DNA of 64,000 nucleotides from Vulcanimicrobiota bacterium (GTDB lineage: Bacteria; Vulcanimicrobiota; Vulcanimicrobiia; Vulcanimicrobiales; Vulcanimicrobiaceae): positions 1-64,000 of the forward strand of contig DAHUZB010000024.1 in assembly GCA_027306785.1 (NCBI GenBank), read 5' to 3'. The position numbers were made by a program, and so were the translations under genes. The notes under the pieces are model-generated. The model searched no databases. It saw only the letters and a program-made list of their open reading frames with translations, and had not been told where the DNA came from. Of this stretch, positions 22,278-26,744 are shown one piece after another; position 1 is the first letter of the stretch, and each line of letters begins with the position of its first letter.

Positions 22278-22913
22278 GTGCGCACCGCCTACCATGAGGC
22301 GCTCGAAGCCACACGATTGGACGTCGTTCGTCTCGGCGCCCTCTGCGGCGACGCGATTCGCGTGGCCGTCGAGTCGCTCGACCGCCGTGACGCCACCGCC
22401 GCCGCGCGCGTGGTCGCCGGGGACGACGTGATCGACGATCTCCGCCGCCGGATCGAATCGCACTGCATCGAGCTGATCTGGCGTCAGCAGCCGGTCGCGG
22501 GCGAGCTGCGCGAGATCGCGGCGATGCTCGAGATCGCGACCGACCTCGAACGCATCGGCGACTACGCGGTCGACATCGCGAAGAACGCGATCAAACTCGC
22601 CGATCAGGCGCTGCGCCCGCAGAAGGTGGAGATCGATCGCATCGCGAGCGTGGCCCACGGCATGCTGCTCGACGCGATGCGCGCCTACACCGAACGCGAC
22701 GAAAAGCTCGCGACCGACGTGATCGAGCGCGACGACGAGGTCGACAAGCTCTACAAGCGCAGCATCAAGCTGCTGCAGGAGGAGATGCAGGCCGATCCCG
22801 AGCTGGTGCGCTCCGGCACGCGCTACCTCTTCGTGCTCGCCTCCCTCGAACGCGTCGGCGACCGCGCGAACAACATCGCCTGGCACACCAAGGAGATGAT
22901 CGGCGCCGAGTGA
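22278..22913 (+). CDS. phoU: PhoU-family phosphate signalling protein
   Basis: An all-helical protein of 211 aa with the two PhoU repeats, each with a metal-binding E/DxxxD-like motif: DLERIGDYAVDIAKN (residues about 92-106) and SLERVGDRANNIAWH (about 190-204). PhoU links the Pst phosphate transporter to the PhoR sensor kinase. No pst or phoR genes are in the window. The start is GTG with AGGAGG upstream and its own promoter. Confidence 0.92.
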   Translation: MRTAYHEALEATRLDVVRLGALCGDAIRVAVESLDRRDATAAARVVAGDDVIDDLRRRIESHCIELIWRQQPVAGELREIAAMLEIATDLERIGDYAVDIAKNAIKLADQALRPQKVEIDRIASVAHGMLLDAMRAYTERDEKLATDVIERDDEVDKLYKRSIKLLQEEMQADPELVRSGTRYLFVLASLERVGDRANNIAWHTKEMIGAE

Positions 22914-24079
22914 CGGCGGAGATCTCCGGCGATACGCCGCTCCCGCGCGCGGAGTTCGCGGTTACCGAACGCTATACGTATCTCAACCACGCCGCCGTCG
23001 GCGTGTTGCCGCGCAGCACGCAGCACGCGCTCGATGCATTCATCGCCGCGCACGCGACCGGCGGCGTGATGGGCGTCTTTCCCTACGAGGCGAAGATGCC
23101 GGAGTACCGCGAGCGCATCGGGCGTTTTCTCGGCGCGAGCGGCGCGGAGATCGCGGTGCTGCGCAACACGAGCGACGGCGCGAACGCGATCGCCCTCGGC
23201 CTGGACTGGCAGCCCGGCGACGAGGTGATCCTCGCCGACAACGAGTTTCCCGCCAACGCGATTCCGTGGCTCGCCCTGCGCGCCCGCGGCGTGCACGTGC
23301 GGCTCGTGCGCAGCGATCGCGAACGCTTGACGCCCGCGGTGCTGCGCGCGCAGATGACGCCGCGCACGCGCGTCGTCGCCGTCTCGTGGGTGAGTTTCGC
23401 CGACGGCTACCGCCACGATCTCGCCGCGCTCGCGGAGATCGCGCACGCGGGCGACGCGCTCTTCTGCGTCGATGCGATCCAAGGGCTCGGCGCCTTTCCG
23501 CTCGACGTGCGCGCGCTCGGGATCGACGCGCTCTACGGCGGCGGGGCGAAGTGGATGCTCGCGCTCCAAGGCGTCGGCTTTCTCTACGTCCGCGAAGCGC
23601 TGATCGAACGTTTGGGCGTCGGCGCGCCCGGCTGGCGCTCCATGCACGACGTGTGGGCCTTTCTCGACTACGAGCAGCCCTATGCGAGCGATGCCACCCG
23701 CTTCGAGGGCGGGACGGCAAATTTCATCGGCGCGCTCTCGCTCGCGAGTTCGATCGAGCTGCTGGAGCGCGCGGGAACGGCGCGCATCGCCGAGCACGTG
23801 CTGATGCTGACCGATCGCCTGGTCGATGGGCTGCTCCGCGCGGGCGCGGAGCTCCACACCCTGCGGGGCCCGGGCATCTCGTCGGGCATCGTCACCTTCT
23901 CGATGCCGGGCTGTGAGAGCATCGCGCTCGGGAAGGCGCTCCAGCAGGCCGATGGGATCGTCACCACCTGGCGAGCGAGCGGGATTCGGGTCGCGCCTCA
24001 CGGATACACCACGACCGAGGAGATCGACCATCTGGTCGACGCGTTGCCGCGCCATGCGCGCGCGCTGCGCGCCTCCTAG
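22910..24079 (+). CDS. Class V aminotransferase / cysteine desulfurase-like PLP enzyme
   Basis: A PLP-dependent protein of 389 aa. YLNHAAVGVLP is the N-terminal substrate block, FCVDAIQGLGAFPLDVRALGIDALYGGGAKWML contains the cofactor-binding Asp and the Schiff-base Lys of GGAKW, and the C-terminal small domain ends RVAPHGYTTTEEIDHLVDAL. Family members include cysteine desulfurases, kynureninases and isopenicillin N epimerase-like enzymes. No convincing catalytic cysteine loop is seen, so a true desulfurase is doubtful. The GTG start overlaps the phoU stop by GTGA. Confidence 0.82.
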   Translation: MTAEISGDTPLPRAEFAVTERYTYLNHAAVGVLPRSTQHALDAFIAAHATGGVMGVFPYEAKMPEYRERIGRFLGASGAEIAVLRNTSDGANAIALGLDWQPGDEVILADNEFPANAIPWLALRARGVHVRLVRSDRERLTPAVLRAQMTPRTRVVAVSWVSFADGYRHDLAALAEIAHAGDALFCVDAIQGLGAFPLDVRALGIDALYGGGAKWMLALQGVGFLYVREALIERLGVGAPGWRSMHDVWAFLDYEQPYASDATRFEGGTANFIGALSLASSIELLERAGTARIAEHVLMLTDRLVDGLLRAGAELHTLRGPGISSGIVTFSMPGCESIALGKALQQADGIVTTWRASGIRVAPHGYTTTEEIDHLVDALPRHARALRAS

Positions 24080-24783: not shown

Positions 24784-26220
24784 TTAGTAGCCGTTCTCCT
24801 TGACGAACGACGAGGTCATCACCGCGTCGCTCATCCCGTGGATCAGGCGCTTGTCGGCGGGCGCAATCGTCGCGAGCACGCCGCCGAGTTCAACGCTCGT
24901 CTCGCCGGTCACGAAGTAGTACGGGCAGAGACGCACGCGTCCGTCGAACATACGGATCTCGCCCTCGGTGCGGTCGAGGTAGGGCATGCGGATGCGTTTG
25001 CCTTTGTGGAAGCGCTGTAGGATGTGCGGCGTGCGTTCGTACGACGCGAGCGCGTCGTCGATCGCGGCGCTCCAGTCTTCCTTGGTGAGATCGTTCGCGA
25101 TCTTCACGCCGCGCGAACCCCACGCGAGCGCGGAGAAGCCCGACGGTTTCACGACGTAGTCGCGCTCGCTCTTGCCGAGATCGACGAGCGCGCGCCAATC
25201 CTGCACCGGCGCGCCGTTGACGGTCAGCCCGTGAATGAACGCCTGCGGCGGCAACGGTCGCGGATCGAGCACCCAGGTCTGCGGAAAGATCGCGTGCAGT
25301 CGCGCGAACGCGTCCTTGCCGAGCTCCGCGCGCCACAGCTGCGCGAGCGCCGGATGGTGAAAGAGCGCGAAGGAGAGCTTCTCTTCGAGCGTCGCCTTCG
25401 GCGGCGGCGTCATCTTCACGCGATTGTGCCGCGCGGCGTAGAGCATCAGCTCCTGCTTGGGCACGTTAAGCAGATCGAAGAGCTCGAAGTTGCGGTAGAG
25501 CGCGTCGAGCTTCTCTTCGCGGCCGTCGTCCCTGCGCACGAAGAGCGCCTCTTCGGTGAAAATCACCGCTTCGGGACGGCAGACGTACGCGGTCACCTCG
25601 CCCGTCTCGTTCACCGCATCGGCGAGCCAGGTCAGTTCGTTGCGATAGTCTTCGGATTCGTCGGAGACGACGATCGCGACGGTCGGATGCTCCGCGCCGA
25701 CCGCTTGCGCGATCATGCGGGCGAAGCCGCGCGCGATGCCGTGGACGCCGCCGATCGACTCGATCCCGGCCTTGCAGTACGCCTGCGCGAGCGCGCCGAC
25801 GAAGCCCATGCCGCCCGGCACGCTGTCGAGCTCGGATGCGACGAAACCGTCGTCGGTGAGCAGTAAATCGGGGCGAATGACGCCCGGAATCTCTTGTTTG
25901 AAGCGGTTCTGCCGCGCGAGCTTCACGATATGCTCGGGCTTTCCGCGGTCGAGATATTCCGCGATGAACGCGGGTGCCGTGCCACGCGCACTGCGGTTGT
26001 ACAGACTGTTGAGCGCGCGGTAGAAGGCGAGGAGATCGGTGCCGATCCGCTCCAGCTCGGCGACGGTCTTCGGCGACAATGCGAACGGCTCGGGACTTAC
26101 GCGCCACGGAATCCGGTCGGCGCCGTCTTCGATCTTGAAGAGGCCGTCCGGAAGCGAATCGTGGATGAACTGCGCTTGGTCTCGAGCCGTGAGATTCGGC
26201 ACACTGGCCGTACAGGACAT
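24784..26220 (-). CDS. ATP-grasp-like protein (glutathionylspermidine synthase-like)
   Basis: A protein of 478 aa. The C-terminal half has ATP-grasp-like features: RDYVVKPSGFSALAWGSRGVKI resembles the lysine and glycine-rich loop, and HILQRFHKGKRIRMPYLD then RMFDGRVRLCPYYFVTGE resemble the nucleotide and metal-binding part. The upstream half has FVASELDSVPGGMGFVGALAQAY and an acidic patch (SDESEDYR). Such proteins join an acid to an amine with ATP. The start is ATG at 26220 with TAGGAG about ten bases upstream; a longer frame reaches 26334. A 19-codon mini-gene lies just upstream. The specific reaction is unknown. Confidence 0.6.
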   Translation of the reverse strand: MSCTASVPNLTARDQAQFIHDSLPDGLFKIEDGADRIPWRVSPEPFALSPKTVAELERIGTDLLAFYRALNSLYNRSARGTAPAFIAEYLDRGKPEHIVKLARQNRFKQEIPGVIRPDLLLTDDGFVASELDSVPGGMGFVGALAQAYCKAGIESIGGVHGIARGFARMIAQAVGAEHPTVAIVVSDESEDYRNELTWLADAVNETGEVTAYVCRPEAVIFTEEALFVRRDDGREEKLDALYRNFELFDLLNVPKQELMLYAARHNRVKMTPPPKATLEEKLSFALFHHPALAQLWRAELGKDAFARLHAIFPQTWVLDPRPLPPQAFIHGLTVNGAPVQDWRALVDLGKSERDYVVKPSGFSALAWGSRGVKIANDLTKEDWSAAIDDALASYERTPHILQRFHKGKRIRMPYLDRTEGEIRMFDGRVRLCPYYFVTGETSVELGGVLATIAPADKRLIHGMSDAVMTSSFVKENGY

Positions 26221-26233
26221 AGTGAATCTACTC

Positions 26234-26293
26234 CTACCGACAACAACCGTCGGGGATTTTGGCACTGCTGAACGCGATGTAGCGGCGTCGCAT
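26234..26293 (-). CDS. Possible 19-aa peptide upstream of the ATP-grasp-like gene
   Basis: The frame encodes MRRRYIAFSSAKIPDGCCR followed by TAG. AGGAGAG lies five bases upstream of its ATG and 13 nt separate its stop from the ATP-grasp-like start. A TTGCAA, 18 bp, TATCTA promoter-like element lies directly upstream. It is too short for statistical support. It could be a leader peptide, a precursor for the ligase, or chance. Confidence 0.35.
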   Translation of the reverse strand: MRRRYIAFSSAKIPDGCCR

Positions 26294-26360
26294 AATCTCT
26301 CTCCTAGATACCCCGAACGCGCGCGCGGTTGCAACCGGCTGGGCGCTTCCTCGGGCGAGC

Positions 26361-26744
26361 TTACTTGACGATGATCGCGCCCGGGGTGAGCAGCGCGCTC
26401 TCGACCCGGATCGTACCGCCCGCGTAGACGAGCGTCAGGTGCAGCGTCCCGGTGAGGCCCAGGTCGGCCAGGTCCACGCTCTCGAGCACGCGCGAGGGGC
26501 CCTCGCCGGAAACGAACGTCATCGTCGAGGTGCGTTGGATCGTATGTCCGCCGCTTGCATAGGTCGCGGCGACGCGCAGCGCGGTCTCGCCCGCCGGACT
26601 CGCCGTGCTGCCGACGATGCAGTAGCCGACCGCCACCGGCGTCCCCCGCACGCTCAGGGTCTCGCGCGTGCAGGGTGCCTGCGCGCTCGCGCTCGTCGGC
26701 AGCGCGGCAAGCAGGGTGAGGAGGACGAAGGCGAGCTGTTTCAT
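26361..26744 (-). CDS. Small secreted protein of unknown function
   Basis: A protein of 127 aa with a clear signal peptide (MKQLAFVLLTLLAALPTSASAQ). The mature part has two cysteines (PCTRETL and GYCIVG) that may form a disulfide, and beta-strand-like repeats ending in GTIRVESALLTPGAIIVK. No family recognised. It lies about 70 bp upstream of the mini-gene region, on the same strand as the ATP-grasp-like gene. Confidence 0.6.
   Translation of the reverse strand: MKQLAFVLLTLLAALPTSASAQAPCTRETLSVRGTPVAVGYCIVGSTASPAGETALRVAATYASGGHTIQRTSTMTFVSGEGPSRVLESVDLADLGLTGTLHLTLVYAGGTIRVESALLTPGAIIVK

Follow-up and report, generated by a model that had tools for sequence, protein, structure and literature searches.

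In graspetide pathways an ATP-grasp enzyme is encoded beside a short peptide gene, and the precursor core offers Asp or Glu donors and Ser, Thr or Lys acceptors. Some short upstream ORFs act on the expression of the gene behind them. In mycobacteria, leaderless polycysteine short ORFs (Canestrari et al. 2020) are described as controlling a downstream gene through Cys-dependent elongation (PMC9031893, PMC9094748). The ORF uORFC-8-2, located upstream of cysS in Rhodobacterales, usually carries its Cys codons at positions 14-15 and is expected to sense charged tRNA-Cys (PMC8632094). CruR (DUF2946) is presented as a copper-responsive upstream ORF with CXXC and RAPP motifs that works with Rho-dependent termination (PMC9426467). 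Finally, for serine sensing by sinR, it is reported that synonymous codon choice couples expression to amino-acid supply with no dedicated RNA or protein (PMC3862929).

The locus described here lies in the window, by which we mean the whole 64,000-nucleotide stretch of DNA that was analysed. Like the graspetide loci, it places a ligase that is ATP-grasp by predicted fold next to a short peptide gene. Searches of an open-licence library brought up no earlier report of this mini-gene. The relevant features are as follows.

26361-26744, minus strand: predicted secreted protein of 127 aa, just upstream of the mini-gene (tblastn)
26305-26332, minus strand: promoter-like element G(C/A)AAC(C) ... G.. 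T(C/T)T (position count in relatives)
26234-26293, minus strand: mini-gene (leader ORF) MRRRYIAFSSAKIPDGCCR, 19 codons plus TAG (conserved frame, pN/pS)
26249-26290, minus strand: peptide core RRRYIAFxxxKIPD, codons 2-15 of the mini-gene (48-row alignment)
26240-26245, minus strand: TGT TGT (Cys-Cys), codons 17-18 of the mini-gene, the proposed sensor codons
26231-26235, minus strand: AGGAG before the enzyme gene, overlapping the mini-gene stop as TAGGAG (sequence)
24784-26220, minus strand: 478-aa ATP-grasp ligase with a glutathione synthetase / glutathionylspermidine synthetase fold (predicted model)
22910-24079, plus strand: class V aminotransferase, cysteine-desulfurase-like, convergent (PF00266, E 7.7e-51)

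Results

A conserved mini-gene in front of the ligase gene

A sequence-only reading of this DNA had proposed a mini-gene of 19 codons with AGGAGAG five bases upstream and an end 13 nt before a ligase gene. All of these details are correct, on the minus strand. The ORF runs from an ATG at 26293-26291 to a TAG stop at 26236-26234, with AGGAGAG at 26305-26299, and 13 nt separate its stop from the enzyme ATG at 26220.

When the enzyme was used as query in 60 genomes, the window's own included, it was found in 55, all of one class, and was absent from the five genomes of the same phylum that belong to other classes. A full mini-gene stands ahead of it in 48 of these 55 genomes, among them the window's, across three families of the class: 31/37 in family 1 (the window's family), 4/4 in family 2 and 13/14 in family 3. 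L052, a chance motif match, was left out of the 48. The typical peptide is MRRRYIAFxxxKIPDGC(C)R in family 1, MVRRRYI(F/Y)(L/F)SSSKIPDCC in family 2 and M(I/A/V)RHLFRYLxxPKIPPAC with a variable tail in family 3. In the 48-row alignment, K12 is invariant, and R2 and P14 are conserved to at least 90%.

The comparison of relatives that the earlier reading had called for came out in its favour: frame and start are kept and synonymous changes are many. The peptide cores of family 1 (n = 31) gave a pN of 0.184 and a pS of 0.721 (pN/pS 0.255), and those of family 3 (n = 13) a pN of 0.236 and a pS of 0.645. As synonymous differences are near saturation and amino-acid differences are few, this looks like a translated, selected peptide gene. 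On these alignments, a short ORF under coding selection lies directly upstream of the ligase gene, and the mini-gene is real, far beyond chance.

The mini-gene appears to be tied to this position. A degenerate DNA pattern recovered a single copy, adjoining the enzyme, in each of six genomes with the mini-gene, and had no match in six genomes without a full one. In a profile search of 16 genomes, the four expected copies were recovered with E-values of 1.5e-8 to 8.8e-11 and no extra copies were found, the remaining matches (E of at least 0.0128) being taken as chance. Outside the class, the best match of the peptide profile in 41 loci of other phyla had an E-value of 0.43, while three positive controls were recovered.

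The ligase and its surroundings

The AlphaFold2 model of the 478-aa enzyme has a pLDDT of 87.5 and a pTM of 0.90. Foldseek matched it to human glutathione synthetase with an E-value of 6e-16, and further to plant glutathione synthetases, E. coli glutathionylspermidine synthetase, YjfC and YgiC. Alignment with VIA-align gave Z-scores of about 25 to Cp1B, human and plant glutathione synthetases and YjfC, including 25.2 to 8fbz_A over 406 residues and to 9cjn over 403 residues; for the fungal amide ligase Cp1B the score was 25.2 over 403 residues. The product of Cp1B is a pseudodipeptide (PMC12568646). By the fold of its model, our protein belongs with the ATP-grasp ligases; a fold in common does not in itself establish function. 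It is named by neither Pfam nor NCBIfam models. Pfam matches are weak (CP_ATPgrasp_2 in 4/54, best E 0.055; unrelated families, E of at least 0.035), and a sequence profile search against the PDB gave no match. The ATP-grasp identity proposed earlier is hence upheld by model comparison but not by the family-HMM test.

Glutathione synthesis was considered as the pathway and is not supported by family models in 21 genomes. A true glutathione synthetase would act with a gamma-glutamylcysteine ligase; of the two ligase models searched, GCS2 was matched in 4/21 and Glu_cys_ligase in 0/21. The bacterial glutathione synthetase model was likewise matched in 0/21. The window's genome has no match to any of these three models. 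The enzyme itself carries a nearly invariant Cys3 in the class; Cys codons within its first 20 codons comprise 36 TGT and 16 TGC. By eye, a Cys is seen at position 4 in several enzymes of other phyla.

A scan of genome contigs confirmed at least 562 relatives of the enzyme, of which the best 80 were kept. These best 80 of at least 562 consist of 39 of the Eremiobacterota type, a few of which (e.g. L077, L093) bear other titles but match class genomes, and 41 others with 46-52% identity from Poribacteria, Latescibacterota, Nitrospirota, Gemmatimonadota, Bacillota, Chloroflexi and more. Within the same best 80 of at least 562, 23 of the 41 other-phyla loci have a lysine 2,3-aminomutase (KamA)-like gene within their flanks, and all four of the four such genes scanned passed the KamA family cut-off. 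The loci with this neighbour are L103, L104, L107, L108, L111-L113, L118, L119, L121, L125-L129, L132-L137, L139 and L140. This uncharacterised pair of an ATP-grasp and a KamA-like gene may serve beta-amino-acid amide synthesis. Inspection by eye of 17 loci in class genomes revealed no mini-gene ahead of a KamA gene.

Two further neighbours recur in the class. The 127-aa protein, whose gene lies across the promoter-like element from the mini-gene and which is predicted from its sequence to be secreted, has a tblastn match in 28/39 class loci, some truncated by contig ends, and has no Pfam or NCBIfam match. The convergent aminotransferase-like gene is likewise matched in 28/39 class loci. Its best NCBIfam model is SufS (E 5.1e-39), with 134 bits against a cut-off of 475. 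This conserved cysteine-desulfurase-like neighbour is a weak hint at sulfur metabolism. The window also carries a tRNA-Cys(GCA) gene at 229-303, and in 12/19 genomes with a clear match a tRNA-Cys gene lies on the ligase contig, approximately 12-70 kb away. This linkage is probably general synteny.

A fixed cysteine codon

The mini-genes have Cys codons toward the end of the ORF in 46/48 cases; L004 and L014 have none. Behind the K-I-P motif, TGT encodes the first Cys in 46/46 loci (29/29, 4/4 and 13/13 in families 1-3). Overall, TGT makes up 72/79 of the Cys codons of the mini-genes, compared with 40/182 in the bodies of the same enzymes (Fisher P 7e-27, for sequences that are not independent). 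The background in the window's genome, taken from 296 ORFs in a 460-kb sample, is 97/849 Cys codons (11%) in ORF bodies and 14/70 within the first 20 codons. Asp in the same mini-gene peptides is encoded by GAC in 34/37 cases, so that the TGT bias is no general drift to T.

The position of this codon is also constrained. Cys lies four or five codons beyond the K in 43/46 loci and 0-20 codons ahead of the stop. Being fixed relative to K and variable relative to the stop, it keeps its place with respect to the nascent chain rather than the enzyme, whose start lies 5-75 nt downstream of the point where the first TGT begins.

A second set came from the contig scan, whose 39 class loci divide into 16 already seen and 23 new ones. 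The latter comprise 18 full mini-genes, four six-codon ORFs and one locus with neither. Here too, the first Cys is TGT in 18/18 full mini-genes (17 by script; L068, which has KVP, by eye). L079, L081 and L083-L085 share one peptide, the same as in L025, and some of the other new loci are close kin of the first set. Because the sequences are related, these counts are counts of loci and not of events. The codon and amino-acid comparisons show selection on the peptide and on TGT as two separable layers.

Signals for transcription and translation

The sequence-only reading had also pointed to a TTGCAA-N18-TATCTA element, so close that the mRNA could begin at or near the mini-gene ATG. The letters are present on the minus strand (TTGCAA at 26334-26329, 18 nt, TATCTA at 26310-26305), but the promoter-like element conserved in 40/40 testable loci is G(C/A)AAC(C) followed by G..TTT instead. 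In these loci of families 1 and 2, G(C/A)AAC ends 29-35 nt ahead of the first codon, and it occurs in 0-2/40 in seven other 7-nt position windows. About 21 positions further on, the G of G..TTT is found in 29/40 and its three T in 34, 29 and 30/40. For this count, L021 was untestable owing to a contig end, the starts of L033 and of four family-2 loci were moved to an in-frame ATG just upstream, and the starts of the minimal ORFs were taken for L023 and L036. The AAC-type first part presumably resembles ECF sigma promoters. In family 3 the element was not recognised. In a regulon search across the window's genome, the pattern had four matches against four for its reversed control, with a second gap too short for the window's own site. 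A similar pattern before tRNA-Cys (three matches in the window, 0.58 expected) was dropped, since tRNA-Gly and tRNA-Cys are usually close together in family-1 relatives.

The narrow spacing of 29-35 nt argues for transcripts that start at the first codon, in support of the earlier proposal of an mRNA start at or near the mini-gene ATG. Where the mini-gene is absent (L018, L034, L035, L054), the element is found 29-35 nt ahead of the enzyme start instead. These distances suggest that the mini-gene is translated from a leaderless mRNA. The AGGAGAG that had been taken for a Shine-Dalgarno sequence is where it was said to be, but SD-like tetramers precede the mini-gene start in just 13/48 loci. 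Moreover, AGGAG shares the last base of TATCTA, so this 'Shine-Dalgarno' would fall outside an mRNA that begins with the ATG or right beside it. The enzyme start, by comparison, has an SD-like tetramer ahead of it in 37/48 loci. Between mini-gene stop and enzyme start, the spacing ranges from -19 to +11 nt across all 48 loci, 13 of which overlap.

We found no selected RNA structure in the 48 leaders when compared with synonymous-randomised versions. The mean folding z-scores for families 1-3 were +0.84, -0.18 and +0.26 for whole leaders and +0.22, +0.86 and +0.08 for leader ends. A hairpin seen by eye at the mini-gene end in family 1 was rejected, as it is no more stable than synonymous-randomised sequences. 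There is no terminator-like site in the window between 24600 and 27000. With neither a selected structure nor such a site, a classical hairpin attenuator is not indicated.

Reduced and lost forms

At L023, L076, L082, L086 and L087 we noted, by eye, a six-codon ORF of the form M-R-C(TGT)-x-x-x-stop that overlaps the enzyme start as TGATG. In L023 it reads M-R-C-R-R-G, with TGT for Cys, and L036 has a five-codon version, M-A-C(TGT)-R-S. No recognisable leader ORF exists at L018, L034, L035, L052, L054 and L072, all of which keep the enzyme. As the enzyme persists without the mini-gene, both within the class and in other phyla, the peptide is not an obligatory substrate.

The enzyme tree has 80 rows, consisting of 54/55 loci of the first set, 17/23 new ones and 9/41 from other phyla. 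L054 was left out of alignment and tree owing to an assembly gap. The tree was drawn from its midpoint and its outside branches are long. The class enzymes form one clade of 71 rows with support of 100/100. Full mini-genes are spread through this clade, and L018, L052 and L072, each surrounded by loci with full forms, represent single losses. All six minimal forms, including the five of M-R-C type, fall into one clade of eight together with L034 and L035, the two loci there without a leader ORF. Read from the tree, the simplest history is one gain followed by losses, with the Cys codon kept last.

Discussion

We propose that the mini-gene is a cis-acting leader ORF that controls the ligase gene through its cysteine codons, a reading to which we give even chances. 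Transcription would begin at or next to the mini-gene ATG, and ribosomes would enter by leaderless initiation. The ribosome would then make the short basic peptide RRRYIAFxxxKIPD, on which selection is seen, before reaching a Cys codon or a pair of them, where the rare TGT, read by wobble, is retained in first place. With the core peptide in the exit tunnel, TGT may be decoded slowly and in a way that responds to charged tRNA-Cys or to a nascent-chain ligand. A ribosome that passes would terminate no more than some 20 nt away from the ligase start, a distance given by the layout of the loci, and could re-initiate there. A ribosome that stalls would deliver none, and a nearby stall would also cover the ligase start. 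Ligase output would follow cysteine supply, although the sign could be reversed. The failure to detect RNA structure or a terminator fits this model, because a stall-and-deliver device needs neither. The fixed rare Cys codon suggests that the mini-gene is a built-in sensor that sets the amount of the enzyme rather than raw material for it.

Of the two roles envisaged in the sequence-only reading, the cysteine attenuation leader is the better one, with support at the codon level (TGT in 46/46) but no hairpins or terminator to go with it. A pure Cys sensor is countered by L004 and L014, which carry the peptide without Cys, and a Cys-codon attenuator alone needs no conserved RRRYIAFxxxKIPD, so a role of the nascent chain must be added. 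Direct occlusion of the enzyme start would be out of reach in some loci, where as many as 75 nt separate it from TGT. Further points against the leader reading are the six loci that have no recognisable leader ORF and family 3, which lacks the promoter-like element. A fuller version would be a class-wide UGU sensor without RNA structure, in which the nascent peptide sensitises the ribosome and gates leaderless entry and re-initiation onto the ligase, and which one lineage has stripped to M-R-C-x-x-x. We put this forward only tentatively.

The conservation could also be that of a protein working in trans. A stable microprotein, for example a small basic partner of the ligase or a Cys-based metal or redox site, would merely be co-expressed with the enzyme. 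The strong amino-acid conservation at near-saturated synonymous sites, the presence of Cys in 46/48 peptides and the adjoining position to one enzyme in 48/55 genomes would all agree with this. We nevertheless consider it unlikely, given that it leaves unexplained both the invariant choice of TGT over TGC at the first Cys and the six-codon remnants that keep just M-R-C, and that the genomes searched hold no displaced copy. Alternatively, the peptide may be a substrate of the ligase, as a RiPP-type precursor or as a carrier that receives an amine or amino acid. Such a role would suit an ATP-grasp ligase whose modelled fold is matched by YgiC and YjfC, to which a reference title quoted in PMC12568646 ascribes peptide-spermidine ligase activity. 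The conserved N-terminus and variable C-terminus also resemble leader and core, and Arg is the commonest C-terminal residue (18/48). The enzyme is kept without the peptide, however, within the class and in the 41 other-phyla loci that have no match to the peptide profile. In addition, there are 12 different C-terminal residues, Asp and Glu are lacking in 9/13 family-3 peptides (against 1/4 in family 2 and 0/31 in family 1), the six window proteins searched with Pfam include no RiPP maturase, protease or exporter, and the invariance of TGT finds no explanation. We regard this substrate role as improbable. The graspetide precursor of the earlier reading fares no better: the ligase does without the peptide, no carboxylate donor is available in those nine peptides, and codon choice would be irrelevant to a precursor.

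The remaining alternatives concern the nucleic acid more than the peptide. The mini-ORF might be a leaderless translation-entry device that hands ribosomes to the ligase without sensing anything, with the peptide and Cys codon tuning its speed. The leaderless spacing of the promoter-like element, the stop-to-start distance of -19 to +11 nt in 48/48 and the TGATG overlap of the minimal forms are what such a device would show; the conserved 14-residue core and the TGT codon are not accounted for, and we hold this to be quite unlikely. TGT could also be held for its nucleotides and not for its decoding, if its T and the peptide codons were kept for an RNA element such as a hairpin or a protein-binding site. 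Several family-1 loci would allow CCGAC/GTCGG pairing around the Cys codon, as seen by eye. As synonymous randomisation costs the leaders no folding stability, TGT is kept in unrelated contexts in family 3 and synonymous sites elsewhere are near saturation, we find an RNA element very hard to credit.

Whichever role applies, a gene of about 20 codons has been kept across a whole class of poorly studied bacteria. As a cysteine-codon leader, it would provide a test case for possible amino-acid sensing by nascent chain and codon choice jointly, with no RNA switch involved. The locus also points to an uncharacterised family of ATP-grasp ligases that occurs in many phyla and often has a lysine-2,3-aminomutase-like gene as its neighbour.

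The locus can be set beside the systems described at the outset. Unlike in graspetide pathways, the peptide is dispensable here and in family 3 is mostly without carboxylate side chains. The enzyme differs too, since its model matches glutathione synthetases by fold. Among the fold matches listed there is no known graspetide synthetase, an absence that does not tell against such a grouping. With the mycobacterial polycysteine ORFs, the mini-gene shares a short upstream ORF with Cys codons that is leaderless, here by prediction. Whereas the mycobacterial ORFs have a run of Cys, the mini-gene has one or two, rarely more, the first always being the rare TGT, and a conserved peptide of 14 residues precedes them; the phylum is a different one, and the target is an ATP-grasp ligase. 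The short upstream ORF with Cys codons is likewise shared with uORFC-8-2. That ORF is accompanied by a pair of stems and a U run, as expected of an intrinsic terminator, and uses UGC predominantly (PMC8632094), while the mini-gene has no terminator-like site, no selected structure and UGU. Like CruR, whose nascent chain with a C-terminal arrest motif controls downstream genes, the mini-gene encodes a conserved leader peptide with Cys, although one without the RAPP motif. Finally, the proposed use of a synonymous codon as an amino-acid sensor is akin to that of sinR; in sinR, the codons are Ser TCN codons inside the target gene, as opposed to Cys TGT in a separate leader ORF. As a leader ORF, the mini-gene is ordinary in kind. 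What is unusual is that a rare Cys codon, a conserved nascent chain and predicted leaderless entry occur together across a class.
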